DNA of 43,496 nucleotides from a virus: positions 1 to 43,496 of the IMG/VR virus record IMGVR_UViG_3300047409_000572; one strand, written 5' to 3'. This document shows, piece by piece, positions 2,506 to 25,106 of the stretch (positions within the stretch are counted from its first letter, which is position 1; the number at the start of each line of letters is the position of its first letter). The notes below the pieces were generated by a model that was given only the letters and a program-made list of their open reading frames with translations, searched no databases and was not told the origin of the DNA. The translations under genes were made by a program, and so were the position numbers.

Positions 2506-4674
2506 TTGATTCCGCGGCTGCTCCACCGGATCTGGCTGGGATCCGCCCCGATCCCGCCGAAGGCCGAGGATCACTGGGCCTCGTTCGGGCGGCTGCATCC
2601 GGGCTTCGAGCTTCGCACCTGGACCGACGCCGACGACTACTCGTGGCTCCGTAACCGCGAGCTCTTCGAGCGAGCGAGCACGTGGACGTCGCGGTCCGAC
2701 GTGCTCCGCTTCGAGCTCCTCGCTCGCTTCGGCGGCGTTTACGTCGATGTGGACGTGGAGCCGGTCCGCAGCTTCGAGCCGCTCCTCACCCATGGCGCGT
2801 TCGCAGGTTGGGAGGATCCGCACGCGATCTGCGGCGCCGTCATGGGCGCCGAACGAGGTCATCCGGCGATCGAGGCCCTGATCGTGGGCCTCGGCTCGTG
2901 GACGCAGGGACGACCGACCGCTCCGCCGAACGTCTGGGCGGGCCCGACCTACCTCACCGCGCAGTGGGCCGGACGGGAGGATGTGGCTCTGCTCGAGCCG
3001 GCCGCGTTCTATCCGGTCCACTGGAGCCGTCCCCGGAGCCGCAGCCGGCCACAGCCGGAGACGTTCGCGATCCATCACTGGGAGCGGAGCTGGGGTCGGG
3101 TCAAGGAGCCGAAGCTCTCGGTCCTGATGGCCTGGACCGACAGAGGCGACGGCTGGCGCCGGGACGTCAAGGACTGGGTCGAGCGTTACTGGAGAACTCA
3201 CCTGCCCGAGGCGGAGTTCGTCCTCGGCTCGGACGGTGGCCGGGAGCTGTTCAACCGGTCCGCCTGCTTCAACGATGCAGCAGCGCGCTCGAGCGGCGAC
3301 GTCCTGTTCACGCTCGATGCCGATTGCGTGTTGGATCCAGCGGTCATCCGCCAGGCCGCCACCGCCGTGACCGATCATCGGGTCTGGGCCGTGCCCTGGT
3401 ACACGAACTATCGACTGACCGAAGAGCGCACCTCGCAGATCATCGCCGAGGACCCGGAGCGCTTCGACCCCCCTGATCCTCCCGGGATCAGATGGTTCGA
3501 TGGCCGCGAGGCCGGTATCGGGATGCGGTTCGCCGGCTTCTGCGAAGTGATCCCCCGCGCAGCGTGGGAGCTCGTCGGAGGGATGGACGAACGGTTCGAG
3601 GGCTGGGGATCCGAGGACATCGGGATGATGCTGGCCCTGGACACGTTGTGGGGTCCTCACATCGTCCCTCGATCGGGAGCCCTGCATCTGTGGCACGAGC
3701 GCCCGATGAACTCCGGCACGATGAACCCGACGCGCGAGCTCGCCTACTGGGAAGCCGCCGGCGATCCAGCGGCGATGCGAGATCTCAGCGGCGCACGAGG
3801 TAGCGAGCGCTCGAGCGACCATGTGCGGGCACCCGCCGGATGGCTCGTGAGCAAGCCGCCCCGGCCGGACCTGAGACGGATGCGATTCCTCAAGACCGTG
3901 AACGTGCAGACGCCGCCGCCGCCGGCCCGCGCCTCGAAGCTCTCGATCCTCGTCGCGTTCCGCGATGCAGACGGCACCAGGACGGCTCTCTGGAACCTGA
4001 TCCGAGCGAAGCTCGAACGTGAGCTGCCGGAGGCCGAGATCATCGTCGCGAGCGACGACGGTGAGGATCCGTTCCACAAGACGCTCGCGATCAACCGCGC
4101 TGCGCGCGAGGCGAGCGGCGACGTCTTCGCGATCTGGGACGCCGACTCATGGGTGGATCCGCAACGGGTCCGAGAGGCGGTCGAGGTCGTCTCTGAGCTG
4201 CCTCGCTGGTGCCGCCCCTGGAGCTCCAAGCTCAAACTGAACGCGGAAGACACGGCCCGGATCCTCGAGCTCGGGGACACCTGGGATGGGCAGTTCGATC
4301 GCACGAAGGGCGGCAGGCCGGAAGGCCGGACACCCTTCCCGTTCGCGCCGCCGCTGATCCTGACCCGCCAGGCGTGGGAGACCGTCGGCGGTATGGACGA
4401 GCGGTTCCGTGGTTGGGGCCATGAAGACTCGGCCTTCGCGTTCACGTTGAACCGGTTGGTCGGCCAGCAGCGTTCGCTGCCGGGCACCTGCATCCACCTG
4501 TGCCATGACCGCATCAGACGGACCGGAGACGACCTCTGGCCCGGGCAGACGCAAGAACAACGTCAGGCGAACAGGACGCTGGAGCTGTCCTACAGACGAG
4601 CGCGCACGCCTGAGCAGATGCGCGAGCTGATCGCTTCGCGACCCATCAACGAGGAAAGGATGAGCCATGCCTGA
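2506..4674 (+). CDS. Three-domain glycosyltransferase (GT32-like plus two GT-A/GT2-like domains)
   Basis: Product of 722 aa. Residues 1-190 resemble the DXD sugar-transferase (GT32-like) family: IPRLLHRIWLG at the start, then RSDVLRFELLARFGGVYVD followed by the DVD metal site at 81-83. Residues about 203-410 and 478-690 are two homologous GT-A domains, each opening with KLSVLMAW or KLSILVAF, with DAD sites at 271-273 and 545-547 and an acceptor-site block GGMDERFxGWGxED near 358 and 625. The start is TTG at 2506; a stop lies at 2479-2481 in frame and no ATG or GTG fits. The antisense HNH gene sits directly upstream and may have displaced the original leader. It probably builds a short glycan on a virion protein. 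Confidence 0.87.
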   Translation: MIPRLLHRIWLGSAPIPPKAEDHWASFGRLHPGFELRTWTDADDYSWLRNRELFERASTWTSRSDVLRFELLARFGGVYVDVDVEPVRSFEPLLTHGAFAGWEDPHAICGAVMGAERGHPAIEALIVGLGSWTQGRPTAPPNVWAGPTYLTAQWAGREDVALLEPAAFYPVHWSRPRSRSRPQPETFAIHHWERSWGRVKEPKLSVLMAWTDRGDGWRRDVKDWVERYWRTHLPEAEFVLGSDGGRELFNRSACFNDAAARSSGDVLFTLDADCVLDPAVIRQAATAVTDHRVWAVPWYTNYRLTEERTSQIIAEDPERFDPPDPPGIRWFDGREAGIGMRFAGFCEVIPRAAWELVGGMDERFEGWGSEDIGMMLALDTLWGPHIVPRSGALHLWHERPMNSGTMNPTRELAYWEAAGDPAAMRDLSGARGSERSSDHVRAPAGWLVSKPPRPDLRRMRFLKTVNVQTPPPPARASKLSILVAFRDADGTRTALWNLIRAKLERELPEAEIIVASDDGEDPFHKTLAINRAAREASGDVFAIWDADSWVDPQRVREAVEVVSELPRWCRPWSSKLKLNAEDTARILELGDTWDGQFDRTKGGRPEGRTPFPFAPPLILTRQAWETVGGMDERFRGWGHEDSAFAFTLNRLVGQQRSLPGTCIHLCHDRIRRTGDDLWPGQTQEQRQANRTLELSYRRARTPEQMRELIASRPINEERMSHA

Positions 4675-5696: not shown

Positions 5697-6875
5697 ATGG
5701 CCCGCCTCTTCACAGCAGGGGCGGAGACGAACGACGCGACGAACCTCGAGGGGTTCGTCACGACGATCCCTACGATCGTCACCGATGTCGTCCGAAGTGG
5801 ATCGCGAGCGTTCTCGACCGACGGACGCTGGGACATCTCTGGGGGTGGAACCCTAGGGCGGACCTATAACGTCCGTGCCTACTTCCGCTGGAGCGTCCTG
5901 CCGACGAGCGATTCCGTGATCCTGGCGGTCCGCGACTTCACGTTATCTGCGCTCATCAGGTGGTTCTGGACGAACAGCACGGGGACTCTGGACTTGGAGG
6001 TGGGACCTGGGTTAGCGGTCCAGGCGAGCTTCACTCCAGTAACCGGTGTGTGGTACCGGATAGAGGCCTACGTCAGCATCGGCTCCGGTGCCGTGGACAC
6101 ATGGGGCGGTGCGATCAACGGCGGCATCCTAGCCTCGGGCAGCGGAGCGAGCATCAGCGACAACGTCCCGACGAACCTCGTCTTCCAACCCGGGACGGGT
6201 GCCACGGCGAGATACGACGACATCGCTGTGAACGACTCCACCGGGGCAGCGCAGAACGCTCTGCCGGGCGAGGGCAAGGTCGTCTTGCTCCTGCCCATCT
6301 CGGACAATGCTCGAGCAGCGCTCTGGACAGGTGGAGCGGGCGGCACCACCAACCTCTGGGACGCGGTGAACAACACACCGCCGGTTGGCTTGGCCTCCGC
6401 GTCGGCGACGAACACATCACAGATCGAACATGCCGGCGGCGCAGCCGGTACCACAGACGCCTACGACGCCAACATGACGACGCCGGCGACGGCGGGTATC
6501 GGCGCGAGTGACACGATCAACTGCGCCCTCTTCATGGAAGTCGACGGCGAAGACATCGCTACGGGCACGAAGCTCCTGAACTTCGAGGTGCTCTCGAACC
6601 CCGTGATCGCATCTCCCGGGAACGTCACGGCTGGCAATGACGGCGGGGCGGAAGGCACCTACCCGACCCTGTGGGTCGTTCGGCGAAGCGCTCCCGTTTA
6701 CGGGTCAGCGCTCACGGTCGGAACATCGCCGGTGATGCGAGCTCGCCGTCCCGAAACCGTGTCTCGTGTAGCGAGCGTCTGCTTCATGGGGATTTACATC
6801 GACTACACACCCCGCCGCGGTCCGCCGTTCGACGGCGCAAGGCGCCTCGTTCGGAACAGCCTCCTTCGACGTTAG
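5697..6875 (+). CDS. Phage structural protein with LamG/jelly-roll-like domain
   Basis: Product of 392 aa starting at ATG 5697, 5 bases after the previous stop. Residues about 50-190 read as a concanavalin/LamG-like beta sandwich (WYRIEAYVSIGSGAVDTWGG, then YDDIAVNDSTGAAQNALPG), a fold used by phages to bind sugars. The second half, from GEGKVVLLLPISDNAR on, is also strand-rich and ends in a short basic tail. It fits a head fibre or decoration protein that binds surface glycans. Family known from phage virion proteins; its location in the particle is inferred. Confidence 0.7.
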   Translation: MARLFTAGAETNDATNLEGFVTTIPTIVTDVVRSGSRAFSTDGRWDISGGGTLGRTYNVRAYFRWSVLPTSDSVILAVRDFTLSALIRWFWTNSTGTLDLEVGPGLAVQASFTPVTGVWYRIEAYVSIGSGAVDTWGGAINGGILASGSGASISDNVPTNLVFQPGTGATARYDDIAVNDSTGAAQNALPGEGKVVLLLPISDNARAALWTGGAGGTTNLWDAVNNTPPVGLASASATNTSQIEHAGGAAGTTDAYDANMTTPATAGIGASDTINCALFMEVDGEDIATGTKLLNFEVLSNPVIASPGNVTAGNDGGAEGTYPTLWVVRRSAPVYGSALTVGTSPVMRARRPETVSRVASVCFMGIYIDYTPRRGPPFDGARRLVRNSLLRR

Positions 6876-6885
6876 GGAGTCCAAC

Positions 6886-7083
6886 ATGAAGATGCAGGCC
6901 CTGGTCATGGTCACCGTGAGGCTGCCATTCGACGCGGAGATCCCGACGCTCGAGGAGGCCGACGAAGCCACCGTCAGTGCCGCGCGATCGGCCGCGGCAT
7001 CGCAGGCTGAGTCGATCGCCGCCGAGACCTTCAAGGCTCACGACGTGGCCGCGCTCATCGTCGAAGAAGTGAGCGAGGCATGA
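6886..7083 (+). CDS. Small hypothetical protein
   Basis: Product of 65 aa with AGGGAG (6873-6878) before ATG 6886. It starts MKMQALVMVTVRLPFDAEIP and continues as an Ala/Glu-rich helix. No family recognised. It overlaps the next gene by 4 nt (ATGA), so the two are translationally coupled. Confidence 0.65.
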   Translation: MKMQALVMVTVRLPFDAEIPTLEEADEATVSAARSAAASQAESIAAETFKAHDVAALIVEEVSEA

Positions 7084-7574
7084 TCGGGCTCGGGCGTCTT
7101 TACGACGTCGAGTTCCACAACGTCTCGGTCTCGGCACAGCAGGACTTCTTCTACATCAAGCCCGCGGCAGACAAGATCTGTGTCGTTGAGGCCGTGTATC
7201 TGTCGAACGTCGGGATCGGCGCTGACGCGGGAGACGCGCAGGAGGAACTCTTCGATGTACGGCTCGCCTACGTGCCCGCGACGGTAACCGTAGGTTCGGG
7301 CGGGAACTCGTACACACCGACACCGAAGCTCGTGAACGATACGGCTGCGGGCTTCACGGCCAGGATCAACGACACGACGAAGGCGACGTCATCCGGAACG
7401 ATCATCTGGCGGCACTCAGACGGCTGGAACGTTCGCGTCCCCTACGTCTACCTCCCGCCTCCCGAGCATCGCGATCTCGTCGCGAACGCTGCCGCGATCA
7501 CGTTCCAGCTGAACTCCACCCCCACGGACGCGATCCTCATGAGCGGGACGATTCTCGTTCGGGAGATGCCATAA
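7080..7574 (+). CDS. Phage structural protein (conserved small virion protein)
   Basis: Product of 164 aa beginning at an ATGA overlap. The sequence YDVEFHNVSVSAQQDFFYI, the TPTPKLVNDTAAGFTAR segment and the end ILMSGTILVREMP follow the pattern of a conserved all-beta virion protein often found near capsid or connector genes. There is no signal peptide or membrane segment. It probably decorates the head or a fibre base, together with the two larger structural proteins just upstream. Confidence 0.7.
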   Translation: MIGLGRLYDVEFHNVSVSAQQDFFYIKPAADKICVVEAVYLSNVGIGADAGDAQEELFDVRLAYVPATVTVGSGGNSYTPTPKLVNDTAAGFTARINDTTKATSSGTIIWRHSDGWNVRVPYVYLPPPEHRDLVANAAAITFQLNSTPTDAILMSGTILVREMP

Positions 7575-12051: not shown

Positions 12052-12450
12052 GTGACGACGCAAGCACAGAAGGCCCAAGGCTTCACGATCCAGTGGGGCG
12101 CATCGACCGTCCACGAGGTCCTCAACTTCGACCTCCCGACGGATGTCAGCGAGCTCGACGTGACGAACCATGAGTCGGGCGGCTTCCGCGAGTTCATCGG
12201 CGGCCTCATCGACCCAGGGACCGTCACGTTCCCCGTGAACTACAACGAGACCGACCACGGCGCGTTCCTGGACGCCCAGGGCGACTCGTCGCTCGTCGAC
12301 ACGCTCACGATCACCCCGCCCGACAGCTCGACGTCCTGGACCGTGGACGCGTGGGTCAAGGGGTACACGGTCCACGCGCCGGTGGACGGCGCCTGGACGT
12401 GCGACATCACGTTCCGCCTGACGGGGCTCCTCCAGCACGGAGCGTCCTGA
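12052..12450 (+). CDS. Major tail tube protein
   Basis: Product of 132 aa from GTG 12052 with AAGGAGA at 12040-12046. It is an all-beta protein with FTIQWGASTVHEVLNFDLP near the start, EFIGGLIDPGTVTF mid-way and a C-terminal strand DITFRLTGLLQHG, matching the small tail-tube family of siphophages. It polymerises around the tape measure as the tail tube. The start of a new ribosome site after the only gap in the tail operon fits high expression. Sheath genes are absent, so the tail is not contractile. Confidence 0.85.
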   Translation: MTTQAQKAQGFTIQWGASTVHEVLNFDLPTDVSELDVTNHESGGFREFIGGLIDPGTVTFPVNYNETDHGAFLDAQGDSSLVDTLTITPPDSSTSWTVDAWVKGYTVHAPVDGAWTCDITFRLTGLLQHGAS

Positions 12451-12845
12451 TGACGGTCCTGTCCAGGGACGCGATTCTCGACGCTCCGGACACGGAGTAC
12501 GAGATCGTCGACGTGCCCGAGTGGGGCGGCAAGGTCCGCGTGAAGTCGCTGACGGGCGATGAGCGGGACACCTACGAGCAGTCGATCATCGACCAGCGCG
12601 GGACCGTCACTGCCGCGAAACTCGTGGGCGCGCAGGCTCGCCTGATCGCCCTGACCGCCGTCGATGACGACGGGGCGCTGCTGTTCACCGAGACGGACGT
12701 CAGGGCGCTCGGAGCGAAGTCCGCTCAGGCCCTGAGTCGCGTCTTCGACGTGTCGGCCCGCCTATCCCGTCTGCGGCAGAGGGACGTCGAGGAGCTCGTG
12801 GGAAACTCCGAAGGCACCCAGGGCGACGCTTCGCCCTCCGATTAG
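12450..12845 (+). CDS. Tail assembly chaperone G
   Basis: Product of 131 aa beginning at TGATG overlap with the tube gene. It has the usual acidic and helical chaperone pattern (VRVKSLTGDERDTYEQSI, ARLIALTAVDDDGALLF) and ends shortly after a slip site. It binds the tape measure during tail assembly. The longer product G-T is made by -1 frameshifting at 12800-12806. Confidence 0.85.
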   Translation: MTVLSRDAILDAPDTEYEIVDVPEWGGKVRVKSLTGDERDTYEQSIIDQRGTVTAAKLVGAQARLIALTAVDDDGALLFTETDVRALGAKSAQALSRVFDVSARLSRLRQRDVEELVGNSEGTQGDASPSD

Positions 12846-13018: not shown

Positions 13019-16000
13019 ATGTCGACCGTCTCCGAGATCTGGGTCAAGATCAACAGCGACATCTCAGGCCTTCAGCGCGGTCTCCTTTCGTCGGGGACCG
13101 AGCTGAAGGCCTTCTCTGCTACCGCGGCTCAGACGGCCGGCACGACCTCATCGTCGGCAGCGAAGATCGAGACGTCCTACGGCGGGATCGGTGGAACGGT
13201 CCAGAAGCTCGGGCCTGTGTTCATCGCTGCCGGCGCGGCCGCGGTCACCGGGATCGTCAAGGGCATCTCGGCCACGCAGCAGTGGGCCGGCGAGGTCAAG
13301 ACGCTCCAAAGGGTCACGGGCCAATCGGCCGAGGACGCTTCGCGTCTCGCCACCGCTGCGAACACCCTCGGGATCTCGACGTCGACGCTCGCGACGAGCT
13401 TCGGTCTCCTCGGGAAGAACATCATCAACGGGTCGGCGAACCTCGAGAAGTACGGGGTGACGACGAAGGATGCCACGGGCAACACGCTCCCGTTCAACGA
13501 CATCCTCGGGAACATCACTGACAAGTTCGTCTCGCTCCCGAAGGGGATCGAGCAGGCGACGTTCGCGCAGAACGTGTTCGGTCGCGGAGGCAAGGCGTTG
13601 ATCCCCATCCTGTCGCAGGGTCGCGCCGGCCTCGCTTCGCTCGAGGCGGCAGCCGACAAGTACGGGACAACCCTGTCCCAGAAGGACCTGGACGCATCGC
13701 AGGCGTTGACGATCGCGCAGAAGGAGCTCGGGGAAGCGTTCAAGGGCGCCGAGATCTCTATCGGTCGCGACTTCATCCCGGTCCTGACGTCCGCCGTGGA
13801 GAAGGTGACCTCGGTCGTCGAGGTGATCCACAAGATCCCGCAGCCGGTCCTGTCCGCGGGCCTCGCCTTCGTGACGCTCGCCGGAGGCGCGGCTGCCGCC
13901 GGCAAGGTCGTCGGGTTCCTGCAGGACGGCTGGACGAACCTCGGCAACACGCTCGGCATCACCTCCAAGGTGACGGAGACCGCCACGGTCGTCTTGGATG
14001 AGAACACCGCCGCGGTTGTCGGCAACACCGCTGCGCAGGGCTCCTGGGGCGTCGAGGTCAACTCGGCCACGAACGCCATCTCGACGGCCTCTGACGTCAT
14101 CGATGCGGGCACGAAGGCGACGGAGGCCTCCACGACGGCCGTGGTCTCCGACACGGCTGCGCAGGCCGCTCACGCGGCGGCGCAGAAGGGCACCATCGCG
14201 ACGACCGTGAGCCAGATCGCGGGACAGCGGGCCCTGTTCGATGCGACGGTTCTCGGGACCGGAGCGACCGGGGATGCGGCGCTCGCTCAGACGCAGCTGT
14301 TCGAGGCGGAGGGCCTCGCGACCTCCGGGATGGTCGCGGAGACGGCGGCGTGGAAGAGCTTCGGCAGTGCTGGCGTCTTCTCGATCCTGAACTCCGGGCT
14401 GGCGAGCACGGCTGCGGTGCTCTACGGGACGGTGAAGGCGGTTGGGTTCGCCAAGGATGAGTTCACCGACTTCTTCCGGGCGCTCGTCGAGCATGTGAAC
14501 GTAGCCGAGAACACGCGACGAGGCCTCGAAGACATCGGGAACGCGATGCGCCTGTTCGGGTTCGCGGTGCCACACCTCACCAACGATCTGGGTGACTTCC
14601 GTAAGGGCGTCGACGATGTGCAGGCCGGACTGCAGGACGGCTCGATCAGCATCGAGGACGCCAAGACGAAGATCGGCGAGCTCGCCGACAAGTACGGGAT
14701 CGCGAATCTCAACGTCAACACGTTCACGGACAACCTCGCATCGCAGGTCGGGGTCGTGGACAAGGCCGCGATAGCGGCAGCGAAGCACACCCGTGCGATG
14801 CAGCTCCAAGGGCTCGCCATCGGGGAGCTCGCGAGCCACTCTCGGACGGCCACCGGGATCCTCGACCTCATGGGGGAGAGCGCGGCGCAGTTCGGCGCTG
14901 ACGCGCGCAAGGCGTTCCTCGACAGCGACAAGGCGTTCAAGACGTGGGCGACGGACTTCCGGTCTCAGGCCGTCGATGCGTGGAATCAGTTCCGAGATTC
15001 CGCGAGGACCTCCATCGACTTCACGGGATCCATGCTCAAGGATCTGGAGTCGTCGGTGACGGCGGCGCAGCAGGCCCTTGCGGGTGATACGTCGGGGCTC
15101 GGGAAACCTGAACTGGCGAGCCTTCGTGCCGCGGCGCACCTGACCGCCACCGACATCCTGCACACCTTCCAGGCGGCGAAAGCGCAGACCGTTTCGTTCA
15201 GCCGTGACCTCATCGAGATCGGGAAGGTCGGAGGCCAGGCTGGGAAGGATCTTGCGGCCTCCTTCCTGGCTGCTGGAGACACACTCGCGGCGCAGGTCGT
15301 GGCGGACGCGCCGAAGAAGCTCCAGGACAAGATCGTTGGCGCCTTCGGCGCTTCGGAGCACGCCGCTGACAGCTTCTCGACGAAGCTCACGAACGCGATC
15401 GTTGGTCCGCTCGATGACATCTCTGGGCTGCTGGAGGCGATCGCGAAGCATTTCGGGATCGACGTGTCGTTCCTGGATCACGGCTCACAGAAGAAGGCGG
15501 ACTCCCTCAAGACGACCCTGGACTCCATAGCGAAGCACCACCGCGGGGAGATCGACCTGGACACGACCCAGGCGATGGCCGCTCTGGCGAACCTCATCGC
15601 CCGGGAGCATCAGGCGTTCTCCGACGGGAGCGGACCTGTCAGCGTTCACCAGGTCCACGAGGGCGGCCTCATCATGCACACCGGCGGGATGGCAAGCCGG
15701 ATGCACTCGGGACGCCTGGCTGCCGATGAAGTGCCGACCGTGCTGCAGCGCGGGGAGTTCGTGATCCGCAAGCACGCCGCTGCCGCGCTCGGCACGTCGA
15801 CGCTGCGCAGTCTGAACCGGATGCACGCTGGTGGAGCGGTCACGCGGATGCACTCCGACGGTGCTGCAGCGGCGTCCTCCGAAGATCCGAACGCTGGTTT
15901 GACCTGGGGTCCGCGGCCTGTCCCATCGAGGAACGGCAAGATGTTCCTGGATTGGACCGGGCCTATCGCGAGGGGCATGAGCCCCGGAAATGCGATGAAC

Positions 16001-17149
16001 TTCTGGAACCTCAGGATCGGCCGTCGGGTCATCAGCCCTAGTGGTGATCCCACGGTGCGCGTCAGTGCTGACCTTCCTTCTGACTACGTCGATCAGACGG
16101 CCCAAGCGATCACCACGAACGACATGCGCCGAATCCGGTTCCGTCATCCCGTTCGGACGTCACAGGCTTGGCAGGCGACCAATACCTGGGTCCTCGAACA
16201 TGAACTGGGACACGCGCTCGGCCTGGGGCATGTGGGAGCCCGCTACAACATCATGTCCCATCCCACCCTCGGTCGACAGGTGTCTTCTGCTCAGCTGGCG
16301 GTTGTGCGGCAGTTGTGGCCGGGCGGAACGAAGTTGCACGCTGTAGGCGCGGTCAAGCGGATGCACGCAGGCGGCGCAGCGCTTGCTGCCGACACGGCTA
16401 CCGCAACGTCTAGCTACGGAGTCCGACCCCCTCCCACGCGGAACGGTCAGATGTGGATGGGCTGGACGGGTGGCTCCGATAACGCTCATCCCGTGCGAGC
16501 GATGGGCTGGTGGAACGACCGTCTCAATGGACGCTACGTCCAACAGCACGCGAACCCGTCTCTCCACGTTGCCGCGGATCTCGGACCGACGATGTCCAAG
16601 GAGTACCTCGGCTACACGGATTTCAACCTGCGGAACGTCCACCTCAACCCGATCATCAAGACCGTCCAGGATCCGGCGTGGAACCGGGTTCTGCGGCATG
16701 AGATGGGACACGGGTTCGGACTCGGTCATGTGACGAACCCGAACAACCTCATGGACCGGGACCTCACCGGTGATGCGATCGATGCTACGCAGGCCAAGCA
16801 GATCAAGAAGTGGTTCCATCCGCCGACGATGCACGCGGGCGGCTTGGCTGCTGACGAGGTGCCGGCGATCCTCCAGACAGGTGAGTTCGTCATCCGCCGC
16901 CAGGCGGTAGAACACATCGGCGTCCCGAAGCTGCGCGAACTCAATCGCCTGCATGAAGGCGGCCCGGTCACGTCCTCCCCGCTGACGCGGGACGGGTCAG
17001 ATGAAGCAGCGCTCGAGCGAGCCTTCCGGAAGGCGCTGCGCGCGGAGCTTCCTGGTGCCCTGCTAAACCAACGCGTGAAGCTCAACGTCGACCGAAGGAA
17101 GCTGTCGCGCTCGCTCGATGACGACCTGCTCTCAGATGGGCACTGGTAG
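13019..17149 (+). CDS. Tape measure protein with two embedded zinc metalloprotease (metzincin-type) domains
   Basis: Product of 1376 aa, the longest gene, directly after G-T. Residues 1-850 are a typical tape measure: coiled, Ala-rich helices and a hydrophobic part (VLSAGLAFVTLAGGAAAAG near 280-298). A module with LAADEVPTVLQRGEFVIR (about 901-918) occurs again as LAADEVPAILQTGEFVIR near 1277-1294, a usual C-terminal tape-measure block. Between the copies lie two related domains, each starting RPxPxRNGxM and each with a metzincin site: HELGHALGLGH at 1061-1071 with Met1079, and HEMGHGFGLGH at 1227-1237 with Met1245. All three zinc His, the catalytic Glu and the Met-turn are kept in both. They could cut peptides or host envelope proteins during DNA entry, or trim the tape measure. 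The C-terminal 60 residues are basic and Leu/Arg-rich. Confidence 0.93.
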   Translation: MSTVSEIWVKINSDISGLQRGLLSSGTELKAFSATAAQTAGTTSSSAAKIETSYGGIGGTVQKLGPVFIAAGAAAVTGIVKGISATQQWAGEVKTLQRVTGQSAEDASRLATAANTLGISTSTLATSFGLLGKNIINGSANLEKYGVTTKDATGNTLPFNDILGNITDKFVSLPKGIEQATFAQNVFGRGGKALIPILSQGRAGLASLEAAADKYGTTLSQKDLDASQALTIAQKELGEAFKGAEISIGRDFIPVLTSAVEKVTSVVEVIHKIPQPVLSAGLAFVTLAGGAAAAGKVVGFLQDGWTNLGNTLGITSKVTETATVVLDENTAAVVGNTAAQGSWGVEVNSATNAISTASDVIDAGTKATEASTTAVVSDTAAQAAHAAAQKGTIATTVSQIAGQRALFDATVLGTGATGDAALAQTQLFEAEGLATSGMVAETAAWKSFGSAGVFSILNSGLASTAAVLYGTVKAVGFAKDEFTDFFRALVEHVNVAENTRRGLEDIGNAMRLFGFAVPHLTNDLGDFRKGVDDVQAGLQDGSISIEDAKTKIGELADKYGIANLNVNTFTDNLASQVGVVDKAAIAAAKHTRAMQLQGLAIGELASHSRTATGILDLMGESAAQFGADARKAFLDSDKAFKTWATDFRSQAVDAWNQFRDSARTSIDFTGSMLKDLESSVTAAQQALAGDTSGLGKPELASLRAAAHLTATDILHTFQAAKAQTVSFSRDLIEIGKVGGQAGKDLAASFLAAGDTLAAQVVADAPKKLQDKIVGAFGASEHAADSFSTKLTNAIVGPLDDISGLLEAIAKHFGIDVSFLDHGSQKKADSLKTTLDSIAKHHRGEIDLDTTQAMAALANLIAREHQAFSDGSGPVSVHQVHEGGLIMHTGGMASRMHSGRLAADEVPTVLQRGEFVIRKHAAAALGTSTLRSLNRMHAGGAVTRMHSDGAAAASSEDPNAGLTWGPRPVPSRNGKMFLDWTGPIARGMSPGNAMNFWNLRIGRRVISPSGDPTVRVSADLPSDYVDQTAQAITTNDMRRIRFRHPVRTSQAWQATNTWVLEHELGHALGLGHVGARYNIMSHPTLGRQVSSAQLAVVRQLWPGGTKLHAVGAVKRMHAGGAALAADTATATSSYGVRPPPTRNGQMWMGWTGGSDNAHPVRAMGWWNDRLNGRYVQQHANPSLHVAADLGPTMSKEYLGYTDFNLRNVHLNPIIKTVQDPAWNRVLRHEMGHGFGLGHVTNPNNLMDRDLTGDAIDATQAKQIKKWFHPPTMHAGGLAADEVPAILQTGEFVIRRQAVEHIGVPKLRELNRLHEGGPVTSSPLTRDGSDEAALERAFRKALRAELPGALLNQRVKLNVDRRKLSRSLDDDLLSDGHW

Positions 17150-18244
17150 ATGTGGTCCGTCGACATCCACGACCTCGACGGTTCGCTGCGCGTCAGCAAC
17201 CTCAAGTGGACCTCGCTGTCGTTCACGCACGTCCTGAATGCTCCGGGAGCCTGCGAGATCGGCGTCAAGATGACGAAGGTCGCGCGAGCGGACATCGAGC
17301 CCGGGCAGTCCGACTACAAGATCTATCAGGACGGGACGCTGCGGGCCGAAGGCCGGATCTGGACGGCGAAGCCGGACACCGGGCAGGACAGCCTCTCAGC
17401 CAGCATCACCGGTGAAGGCATCGCCGGCATCTTCGCCCGCAGGACCATCGACTGGGAGACCCGCTACGAGCCGGTCTCAGAGTCACCGACGAACATCAAC
17501 ACGCAGTACGGGCTGTCCCAGGAAGAGATCCTCGCGGACCTGATCGCGCTGACCCAGGCGGAGGATGGCGGGGACCTCGGCATCACCCCTGGCGCCCACA
17601 CGGGAGGAGCGCATCTCCGCCGGCGCTGGTACTGCGCGGAGGACGGCGCGTTCCTCTCGGACATCTTCGATGACTTCGCCAGCCTGTCTGATGGCATCGA
17701 CTGGGCCATCACGCCGACCCTGACCGACGACGCGAGTCGCACGCTGGTCACGTTCAACCCGCACCGCGGCACGGACAAGACCGGGACGATCGTGCTCGAT
17801 GGCCCGATGTACCTGGACACGCTCTCCTACGCGATCGATGCCGGCCAGATCGTGACGCGAGGGCACTCGGTCGCCGAAGGCGACTGCGACCCTGCGATGG
17901 GCGACGTCACCGATGACGCGGCCCTCGCGTCCTACGGGCTGCTCGAGGACTTCGAGGGCTCGAACTCGGACGATCCTGACGATGCCGGCGAGCTCGCCGC
18001 CACGCTCGTCTCGCCGCATCCGGTGGTCGGGACGGACCTGGAGTATCGCCTCCCGCTGGGGCCCGCGATCGGGGCCTTCGACGTCGGAGACCGGATCCGG
18101 GTCATCGACGCCGACCGGCCGGGATGGCCGCTGGACATCGACGCTCACGTCCAGGAGATCGAGGTCACGGTTCAGCTCCCCGACGACGACGATCACACGG
18201 TCGTCCGCGTGAACTTCTCCCAGTGGTTCGAGGAGTCCTCCTGA
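17150..18244 (+). CDS. Minor tail protein (distal tail / baseplate hub, Gp37-like)
   Basis: Product of 364 aa, its ATG directly abutting the tape-measure stop. It opens with strands such as DIHDLDGSLRVSNLKWTSLS and contains SQEEILADLIALTQAED and a C-terminal block GAFDVGDRIRVIDADRPGW, the pattern of siphophage tail-tip hub proteins placed right after the tape measure. No protease or lysozyme motif is seen. The next gene starts inside its stop codon. Confidence 0.68.
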   Translation: MWSVDIHDLDGSLRVSNLKWTSLSFTHVLNAPGACEIGVKMTKVARADIEPGQSDYKIYQDGTLRAEGRIWTAKPDTGQDSLSASITGEGIAGIFARRTIDWETRYEPVSESPTNINTQYGLSQEEILADLIALTQAEDGGDLGITPGAHTGGAHLRRRWYCAEDGAFLSDIFDDFASLSDGIDWAITPTLTDDASRTLVTFNPHRGTDKTGTIVLDGPMYLDTLSYAIDAGQIVTRGHSVAEGDCDPAMGDVTDDAALASYGLLEDFEGSNSDDPDDAGELAATLVSPHPVVGTDLEYRLPLGPAIGAFDVGDRIRVIDADRPGWPLDIDAHVQEIEVTVQLPDDDDHTVVRVNFSQWFEESS

Positions 18245-21793: not shown

Positions 21794-22564
21794 ATGACGG
21801 TCAGATGGCAATGGGCACGCGCCGACGGCGCTCCTGACTGGCACACCGGGACGCCGAAGTTCGAGCCGGTCTGGGAGAACTGCTACGACCTGCTCCGGTT
21901 CCACAAGGGGAGCGGCTTCGGCGTGGAGCGCCGGCCTGACGGTGCCACGCACAGGATGCGGCTTCACGAGGTCGACGACTTCCTCCAGCAGCAGATGCCG
22001 TCACAACCCCTCGACACGAAGTACATCGTCAAGAGCGAGAAGGACGGGTTCGCCCTCGCCTTCCGGCGACATGAGGTCGTCGATCCCGAGGCGAAGCAGC
22101 TCGAGGACTTCCTGCGCGCTCAGATCGGTGATGGCTACGAGCTCGGCTATGCAGGCCCGACCCTGTACGACTGCTCGGGGCTGACGCTCGCTGGCATCTT
22201 GGCCGTCACGGGGGAACTCCTTCCGCACAAGGCAGGATTCTCCCCGGCGGTGATGCCAAGCCAGCTCCACGATCCACGGATCATCCACATCACGCGGGCG
22301 CAGCTCAAGCCGTTCGACCTCCTGTTCCATCACGGCGATCAGGTCGCGTGCGACCACGTCTCGACGTACCTGGACAACGATGGTCCCGGCGGCAATGGGC
22401 GTGTCATCGACGCGGAGCCGCACTCGACGAACGCGCCGTCCGGATGGCCGACGTCGCAGACTGGGACCGGCGTGCGGATCCGCCCGATGAACTCTGGCTG
22501 GTACACGGATTGGGAGCACGTCGTCGCGATCGGCCGCGTAGCGGCGATCAACGGGCAGCCCTAG
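21794..22564 (+). CDS. NlpC/P60-type cell-wall peptidase
   Basis: Product of 256 aa with a strong AGGAGG at 21782-21787. The catalytic Cys is in the family motif YDCSGL (Cys127), and a catalytic His is likely in CDHVSTYLDN (His187), with His210 a possible third residue. The N-terminal 100 residues (with a Trp-rich start) are a separate domain that may bind the wall. These enzymes cut D-Glu/mDAP bonds in peptidoglycan. No signal peptide is present. Position after the fibre genes and before membrane proteins fits either a tail-tip lysin or the endolysin. Confidence 0.85.
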   Translation: MTVRWQWARADGAPDWHTGTPKFEPVWENCYDLLRFHKGSGFGVERRPDGATHRMRLHEVDDFLQQQMPSQPLDTKYIVKSEKDGFALAFRRHEVVDPEAKQLEDFLRAQIGDGYELGYAGPTLYDCSGLTLAGILAVTGELLPHKAGFSPAVMPSQLHDPRIIHITRAQLKPFDLLFHHGDQVACDHVSTYLDNDGPGGNGRVIDAEPHSTNAPSGWPTSQTGTGVRIRPMNSGWYTDWEHVVAIGRVAAINGQP

Positions 22565-23339: not shown

Positions 23340-24152
23340 ATGTCTAAGAGAGCTTGGATCGTCTTGCTCTGCGTCGTGATCGTCGTCCTCGTGTTCTGCG
23401 GGGTGCCGCGGGTCGTGAACTCGGAGACCCGTGAGGGGACGTTCATCATCAAGTGCACGTTCTCCCACCGGGCGCAGGTGGACCCGATCGTGTCGCCGGG
23501 GATCCAGTCGGACCACGAGCACACCTTCACCGGCAACGACACGACGGGCGCGGACAGCACGTACTCGACCATGGTCGGCGCTACGACGACCTGTGCCGAC
23601 CGTGACGACACGGCTGGCTACTGGTTCCCGACGCTCCGCCGTCCGGACGGCACGCCGGTCACGCCCATCTTCTCGTTCGCTTACTACAAGAACCTCCCCG
23701 TCCGATACGGCACGACCCAGGCCTTCCCGCCCGACTTCCGGCTGATCGCGGGCGGGCTGGCGAACCCATCGCACACGTTCTGGGATTGCTTCAACACGGG
23801 TGGCAAGTTCTCCACACCGCCGGTCTGCTCGGGCTGGGGGAACTATCTCGTCACGCGGGTGCAGTTCCCGTCCTGTTGGGACGGGGTGAACCTCGACTCC
23901 CAGGACCACCGTTCGCACATGGCCTACGGGACGAGCTCGTCGTGCCCTGCGGCGTTCCCGGTGAAGCTGCCACGGATCAACTTCTTCGTCCGCTGGTGCG
24001 AGAACTGCGGGGGTCCCGGCTACGTCTTCTCCGATGGCACGACCGTGATGCACGCCGACTTCTGGAACACCTGGCGGCAGTCGGCGCTCGAGGCTCTCGT
24101 CGTCCGCTGCCTCAACGCCGGGATCAACTGCGGTCAGATCAAGACCGCCTAG
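23340..24152 (+). CDS. Secreted or membrane-anchored DUF1996 protein
   Basis: Product of 270 aa with AGGAG at 23328-23332. Residues 5-24 are one hydrophobic segment, a signal anchor. The rest follows the DUF1996 pattern step by step: DPIVSPGIQSDHEHTFTGN, a DDTAGYWFPTL segment, FPSCWDGVNLDSQDHRSHM and CPAAFPVKLPRI, with conserved Cys and His. DUF1996 proteins are secreted in actinobacteria and fungi; their activity is not established. The position between wall peptidase and CAP genes suggests envelope work, possibly carbohydrate or wall binding. Confidence 0.83.
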   Translation: MSKRAWIVLLCVVIVVLVFCGVPRVVNSETREGTFIIKCTFSHRAQVDPIVSPGIQSDHEHTFTGNDTTGADSTYSTMVGATTTCADRDDTAGYWFPTLRRPDGTPVTPIFSFAYYKNLPVRYGTTQAFPPDFRLIAGGLANPSHTFWDCFNTGGKFSTPPVCSGWGNYLVTRVQFPSCWDGVNLDSQDHRSHMAYGTSSSCPAAFPVKLPRINFFVRWCENCGGPGYVFSDGTTVMHADFWNTWRQSALEALVVRCLNAGINCGQIKTA

Positions 24153-24156
24153 GGCG

Positions 24157-24561
24157 ATGCGACGGCTCGCCACGGCCGTCGTCCTGGTGGTGCTCCTGAG
24201 CGTCATGGCATGGGCGGTTCCCCACCGCGCCGAGCGGAGTCTGTTCCGGCTCACGAACCATGAACGCACGGTCCGCGGTATCGGCACGGTCGTCTGGGCG
24301 AAGAACCTGCACAAGGTTGCACGAGCCTGGTCGGTTCATCTCGCGACGTTCCATCACCTCGCGGATCCCGAGAGGCTCTACTGCGACTATCAGGGCGCGA
24401 ACGTCGGCGTCTCCAACACGATCGGAGCCATGCACAACGCATGGATGGCTTCTCCGGCGCACCGGATCAACATCCTCGACCCGCGGTTCCATCGCTTAGG
24501 CGTCGGAACGATGCGGGACGCCGCCCACGACCTCTGGGCGACGGAGATCTTCTGTGGCTGA
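24157..24561 (+). CDS. Secreted CAP (SCP/PR1-like) domain protein
   Basis: Product of 134 aa starting 4 bases after the DUF1996 stop. Residues 1-21 are a signal peptide (MRRLATAVVLVVLLSVMAWA, cut likely after about residue 21). The body has CAP-family blocks: TNHERTVRGI, a conserved helix, GVSNTIGAMHNAWMASPAHR, then FHRLGVGTM and LWATEIFC. CAP proteins are small secreted proteins with lipid-binding or other external roles; peptidase activity is rarely proven. Occurrence in a phage lysis block is unusual. Confidence 0.85.
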   Translation: MRRLATAVVLVVLLSVMAWAVPHRAERSLFRLTNHERTVRGIGTVVWAKNLHKVARAWSVHLATFHHLADPERLYCDYQGANVGVSNTIGAMHNAWMASPAHRINILDPRFHRLGVGTMRDAAHDLWATEIFCG

Positions 24562-24638
24562 AAGGTGGTGATCGCCTAACGACGTGACTCGTTTCCGAAG
24601 CTGCGGCTCCGCCGCGGCGCGACGGAAGGAGTCCGCCT

Positions 24639-25106
24639 ATGCGGCGCTTCGTAGCAGTTCTCACCCTCGGCGTCGTCTTCCTGGCGGCGCCTTCTGCATC
24701 TGCACACTTCATCGGCGACGTGGGCTTCCGAGCGGCACCGCCGACGCACCACCATCACTGGCACCCCCTCGCGGCGCAGACGGGCATCCCCGCGCCGGAG
24801 CCATCCCCAACGGCTCAGTCGTCCTATCCGGCGATCCTCGGCGGCGGCGCGTTCCAACTCTCAGCCGTCCAGGTAGCGGGCTACGCCCGCGGAGCGGGCT
24901 TCCCCGAGTCGGTCGTCCCGACGATGGTCGCGATCGCGGCGCGTGAGTCCGGCTACAACGCCCACGCCGTGAACCTTTCCTCCGGCGCCTGCGGTCTCTG
25001 GCAGCTCTACCCCTGTCCGGGCATCGCGTTCCTGGATCCGGCCACGAACGCCGCAGGCGCATTCGCGAAGTACGAGGCCTCCGGGCTCGCGCCCTGGGGA
25101 TTCTGA
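24639..25106 (+). CDS. Secreted transglycosylase-like (SLT/lysozyme-fold) protein
   Basis: Product of 155 aa with AAGGAG at 24625-24630. A signal peptide (residues 1-22, ending SASAH) precedes a HHHHWHP stretch and a short Pro/Ser linker. From about residue 75, the domain has the SLT motif order: VAIAARESGYNAHAVN with the probable catalytic Glu103, then SGACGLWQLYP and FLDPATNAAGAFAKYE. It would cleave the glycan strand of peptidoglycan after export by the host. It may be the endolysin or a second wall hydrolase beside the NlpC/P60 protein. Confidence 0.82.
   Translation: MRRFVAVLTLGVVFLAAPSASAHFIGDVGFRAAPPTHHHHWHPLAAQTGIPAPEPSPTAQSSYPAILGGGAFQLSAVQVAGYARGAGFPESVVPTMVAIAARESGYNAHAVNLSSGACGLWQLYPCPGIAFLDPATNAAGAFAKYEASGLAPWGF

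Follow-up and report, generated by a model that had tools for sequence, protein, structure and literature searches.

Enzymatic motifs within phage tape measure proteins (TMPs) have been described in several cases. A wall-hydrolase motif in the TMP of TM4 aids the infection of stationary cells (PMC1796659), and the C-terminal metallopeptidase motif of T5 pb2 has muralytic activity, the C-terminus of this protein being located at the tail tip (PMC10038345). The same location applies to TMP C-termini in the cases studied (PMC10038345, PMC5099701), and in a survey of enterococcal phages the only enzymes found in TMPs were transglycosylases (PMC10194240). The TMP-borne enzymes that we found described in the literature attack peptidoglycan. 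Here, we analyze a TMP carrying two tandem metzincin-like domains, D1 and D2, and compare it with these systems.

The window comprises the whole of IMG/VR virus record IMGVR_UViG_3300047409_000572 (43,496 bases, 66.6% GC), in which the major head protein is encoded at the start, the tail genes lie centrally, and the large terminase gene is located close to the end. The best matches of the head protein were found in Microbacterium, Curtobacterium, and other actinobacterial phages at approximately 30–34% identity, and because its nearest counterparts are the head proteins of such phages, an actinobacterial host is likely. The largest gene of the record encodes the 1376-aa protein that the first-pass annotation had designated as a tape measure, and this designation was corroborated by the TIGR01760 profile (tape_meas_TP901; 43.3 bits, cut-off 28.8), by matches to several PHROG tape-measure families, and by the position of this long ORF between a tail chaperone gene upstream and a minor tail gene downstream; the Pfam PhageMin_Tail profile scored 28.9 bits, under its cut-off of 33.2. 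The phage is siphovirus-like. The tail module ends with a separate NlpC/P60 wall hydrolase (24.2 bits, cut-off 23), of which a homologue is present in the phage of L006, a relative introduced below. The coordinates of the TMP gene, its parts, and its tail-gene neighbors are collected in the table.

Table. Features of the tape measure gene and its tail-gene neighbors in the 43,496-base window
Feature	TMP residues	Coordinates	Strand	Basis
Tail assembly chaperone		12351..12845	+	phrog_344, E=2.6e-26
Tape measure protein (TMP), 1376 aa		13019..17149	+	TIGR01760 tape_meas_TP901, PHROG TMP families
First DEVPTVLQRGEFVIR...HAGG module	903-945	15725..15853	+	generic TMP module
Metzincin-like domain D1	952-1104	15872..16330	+	homology to D2 and L006 domain; Pfam M10
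Zinc site 1, HELGHALGLGH	1061-1071	16199..16231	+	motif
Candidate Met-turn of D1	Met 1079	16253..16255	+	invariant column, 11-sequence alignment
Metzincin-like domain D2	1122-1271	16382..16831	+	L006 domain 38% identical; fold matches
Zinc site 2, HEMGHGFGLGH	1227-1237	16697..16729	+	motif
Candidate Met-turn of D2	Met 1245	16751..16753	+	invariant alignment column
Second DEVPAILQTGEFVIR...HEGG module	1279-1317	16853..16969	+	conserved in L006
Minor tail protein, downstream of TMP		17150..18244	+	phrog_1885; 76% identical to the protein of the L006 phage
NlpC/P60 wall hydrolase, separate enzyme at end of tail module		21794..22564	+	Pfam PF00877

Elsewhere in the record, the head gene region harbors a 722-aa protein (2506-4674) with a galactosyl/glycosyltransferase domain (phrog_1721, E=1.2e-45). 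Just past the tail module lies a full-length DUF1996 protein (23340-24152; PF09362, E=1e-36), which is conserved in the phage of L006 (E=2e-26) and whose matches in the phage collection were limited to 5 records at 26–31% identity; DUF1996 is mainly a secreted fungal and actinobacterial domain. It is followed by a small CAP-superfamily (SCP-like) protein (24157-24561; PF00188, E=1.5e-10) and an adjoining transglycosylase-like protein (24639-25106; SLT, 26.5 versus 21.3 bits), and judging from these two genes, positions 24157-25106 probably constitute the lysis region.

Two complete HExxHxxGxxH zinc sites, each with a Met 8 residues past its third His, had been noted in the first-pass annotation and were confirmed in the TMP reading frame. 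These two sites were the only HExxHxxGxx[HD] matches in the six frames of the whole record; in a TMP of such composition, about 1.3e-4 occurrences of the motif HExxHxxGxxH are expected by chance, and one in 20,000 residue shuffles produced at least one occurrence. Both domains, each approximately 145 residues long, share the stretch RPxPxRNGxM, found as RPVPSRNGKM at residue 966 in D1 and as RPPPTRNGQM at residue 1136 in D2. The alignment of D1 with D2 over 148 residues yielded 30% identity with E=3e-22, and the duplication suspected earlier is therefore real at the protein level. GC at third codon positions was 0.71–0.77 in D1/D2 (15872-16831) versus 0.87 in TMP residues 1-950, and was likewise 0.77 at the C-terminal end of the TMP; the lower values in D1/D2 possibly reflect a later acquisition.

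The earlier description of these domains as metzincins resembling matrixins was supported by profile searches, as Pfam Peptidase_M10 (PF00413) reached 35.7 bits on the whole TMP (cut-off 24), with the single domains under this cut-off (D1, 23.3; D2, 19.0). A profile built from three TMP domains (D1, D2, and that of L006) retrieved archaemetzincin (4e-4) and MMP-1 (1.5e-3) from the PDB, and when free-standing viral metzincins were included the match to MMP-1 reached 3e-11, a value partly driven by the added rows. In the AlphaFold models (mean pLDDT 58–59), a pLDDT of about 80–90 was reached in the first and last helices, in the active-site helix, and around the Met, whereas the beta-sheet part remained mostly below 40. 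Fold comparison using Foldseek nevertheless returned metzincins: the 50 matches listed for D2 all belonged to this clan (TM 0.40–0.48), matrilysin ranking at the top (E=1.7e-3) and snapalysin reaching a probability of 1.00, and those listed for D1 were also metzincins, albeit weak ones (E about 0.1 or worse). Membership of D1 and D2 in the metzincin clan is thus well supported by sequence comparison, and their metzincin fold is putative, the models being confident for the helices and the Met region. The weakness of these models, together with the varying number of domains among relatives, would suit decayed domains that merely lengthen the TMP as structural spacers. We regard this as highly improbable, since the zinc ligands, the Glu, and the Met are all retained in D1, D2, and the L006 domain despite divergence to just 30–42% identity; the Ala and Trp of helix A are likewise invariant among the 11 aligned metzincins. 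No cysteine occurs anywhere in the TMP, which rules out a cysteine switch of the MMP type, and by the absence of the corresponding prodomain from its sequence the TMP domains stand outside the animal-type MMPs. Such a prodomain is a feature of animal MMPs that bacterial M10 members do not need.

The closest relative, L006 (IMGVR_UViG_3300045284_000105), resembles the studied phage in its syntenic tail module, with tail proteins mostly 52–76% identical, and in carrying a metzincin, HEMGHAFGLAHVPTTANLM, in the position corresponding to D2, followed by the same C-terminal module. It differs in having this single metzincin and a single module copy, both D1 and the first module being absent. The L006 domain is 38% identical to D2, and a small tree united it with D1 and D2 in one group (support 80), within which its pairing with D2 was weak (support 54). 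The more distant L113 (IMGVR_UViG_3300000367_000015) also bears a metzincin within a TMP, after a GEYV-type module (DSVLAHLTPGEYVVRRKAVDKIG) and above the Pfam M10 cut-off; unlike the studied protein, however, this is a different TMP of 2399 aa (PhageMin_Tail, 7e-22) with one metzincin followed by a wall-peptidase-like region. That region (L113:6669-7400) exhibits HSMGRAVDI...HWDHVHW, a pattern of motifs that some wall peptidases share. Its assignment as a proven M15 peptidase was rejected, as Pfam gave E=0.066–0.077 and PDB matches were not significant, leaving a likeness at the motif level only. As the L113 metzincin branches apart from the D1/D2/L006 group in the tree, a separate acquisition is suggested.

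The first-pass annotation had also placed D1 and D2 between two copies of a DEVPxxLQxGEFVIR block, and both copies were found, identical at 24 of 43 residues. The duplicated modules around the proteases are therefore present as described, but they represent a generic TMP module that is also found beside other inserts: GEFV/GEYV modules were detected in TMPs or other virion proteins of Clavibacter, Rhodococcus, Nitrincola, Rhodobacter, Synechococcus, and Pelagibacter phages. Hence, we rejected the module pair as the mark of a protease-specific duplication, given these other inserts and the combination of one protease with one module in L006. The 2958-aa TMP of L012 offers a further example, with two DTVPAxLxxGEFV modules 445 residues apart (6001-7539) enclosing an insert for which Pfam gave no match; L012 was discarded as a relative, being kin through the generic module only.

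Searches for further cases indicate that metzincin-bearing tape measures are rare, the three found being those of the studied phage, L006, and L113. Close relatives were sought in viral and genome collections by back-translation of single proteins and profiles, and none except L006 was recovered. A broad zinc-motif scan (at least 120 matches) returned mostly small free-standing proteins, L006 and L113 being the only TMPs among the matches listed, and a narrower motif scan added three more proteins, all of them stand-alone. In viral contigs, a pattern scan for a metzincin followed by the [VI]P..L..GE module, which demands a GAG codon and limited spacing, retrieved L006 only. Among isolated phage records, tblastn with D1+D2, D1, or the L006 domain found no relative, and the L113 domain matched a cyanophage protein weakly and a bacterial region filed as Acinetobacter phage. 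The latter record (L132, CAKLQH020000026.1; Acinetobacter phage MD-2021a) has the chromosomal genes dnaK, grpE, and purK annotated and looks bacterial. Two large viral proteins, L112 (840-aa ORF) and L064 (912-aa ORF), fuse a metzincin site to regions that look collagen-like or IPT-like, and because of these fusions metzincins may also occur on virion proteins other than TMPs.

Among isolated phages, the nearest TMP was that of the Propionibacterium phage PFR1, with 33% identity over residues 90-275 in the N-terminal part; it differs from the studied protein in that an SLT transglycosylase (993-1060 of 1164) replaces the metzincins C-terminally. The TMP of MacGully also carries SLT in its C-terminal region, and a virion protein of S-SCSM1 carries a glucosaminidase after the same generic module. 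Because these three proteins have transglycosylases or a glucosaminidase in the C-terminal region, D1 and D2, as placed by sequence comparison, fill a known C-terminal enzyme slot of TMPs. Owing to this position, action on the envelope during penetration is to be expected, and we consider it probable that D1 and D2 are proteases brought along by the virion to breach the host envelope as the DNA is injected. Held in the tip-facing slot, which in other phages carries transglycosylases, glucosaminidases, or wall peptidases, they would be packed inside the tail as part of the virion. On opening of the tail they would be released along with the TMP and, before the DNA passes, would cleave some protein or peptide component of the envelope.

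The shared slot could also be taken to mean that D1 and D2 cleave peptidoglycan peptides directly, as ordinary tail lysins with an unusual catalytic fold, and the muralytic metallopeptidase motif of the T5 TMP (PMC10038345) would agree with this. Set against such a role, which we consider improbable, are the absence of HExxH from pb2 and the separate NlpC/P60 enzyme kept beside the tail genes both here and in the phage of L006, so that the metzincins could serve another function. Metzincins are protein-cleaving enzymes, and none known to us acts on peptidoglycan; their likeness to TMP lysins is therefore one of place and not of chemistry. With a wall hydrolase retained in both phages, we infer that a host envelope protein is a more likely substrate than the peptidoglycan glycan, D1 and D2 presumably being active enzymes released at the tail tip.

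Considering that TMPs must exit the tail at injection (PMC1796659) and that a contractile injection system has been reported to include a cargo protein with a zinc-protease motif (PMC12210884), D1 and D2 might instead be carried into the host cytoplasm along with the TMP, where they would cleave a host protein, for instance one involved in defence. The chance of this appears slim to us, as the TMP C-termini studied lie at the tail tip (PMC10038345, PMC5099701) and the L113 metzincin is joined to a wall-peptidase-like region. The chief rival to envelope opening is a maturation role, since cleavage of TMPs is known: D1 and D2 would process either their own TMP, with the DEVP/HxGG linkers as one potential site, or other tail proteins, at tail assembly or ejection. 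TMPs are often cleaved, T5 pb2 being cut between its hydrophobic stretch and the metallopeptidase domain (PMC10038345) and the TM4 TMP being probably processed (PMC1796659), and D1 and D2 are flanked by glycine-rich linkers and repeated modules. Even so, we deem this rather unlikely, for PFR1, MacGully, and S-SCSM1 carry wall hydrolases instead of proteases in the corresponding region, and two copies would have no obvious reason.

Taken more broadly, it is conceivable, though we hold it with less than even confidence, that there is a class of TMPs armed with true tandem metzincin proteinases, delivered by the virion and acquired independently at least two times, which would cut a protein layer of the host surface or the TMP itself and not peptidoglycan. 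If the TMP does contain a proteinase, either there is a protein barrier that some phages have to overcome, or such phages bring along an enzyme of their own for processing the tape measure, and the latter, if true, would provide a genetic handle on TMP cleavage. Being small and cysteine-free, D1 and D2 are testable in isolation.

Compared with the systems described above, the TM4 TMP, with its motif 3 and Rpf-like motifs, likewise represents an enzymatic domain embedded in an actinophage tape measure (PMC1796659), but these motifs are of the peptidoglycan hydrolase or Rpf type and differ from the zinc proteases found here. T5 pb2, the TMP of a siphovirus, is similar in having a zinc-peptidase motif close to its C-terminus (PMC10038345), and it has one such motif rather than two metzincins. 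Its sequence contains no H[ED]xxH, and consequently it is not a metzincin precedent; it is annotated with InterPro IPR000834, which we take to be the M14 carboxypeptidase entry. In the literature searched, a collection of 5.39 million open-access papers, no tape measure was reported with a metzincin, HExxH, matrixin, or Peptidase_M10. The first-pass statement that such a tape measure is undescribed accordingly stands for the metzincin type, as far as this limited search of literature and phage records extends, and does not extend to metallopeptidase motifs in TMPs, which are known from T5 pb2 (PMC10038345), nor to the enzyme slot itself. The best structural matches remain the matrixins (M10), snapalysin, and archaemetzincin, which share with the TMP domains the zinc motif, the Met, and helix positions; those are free secreted or cellular enzymes, whereas D1 and D2 are built into a cysteine-free tape measure.
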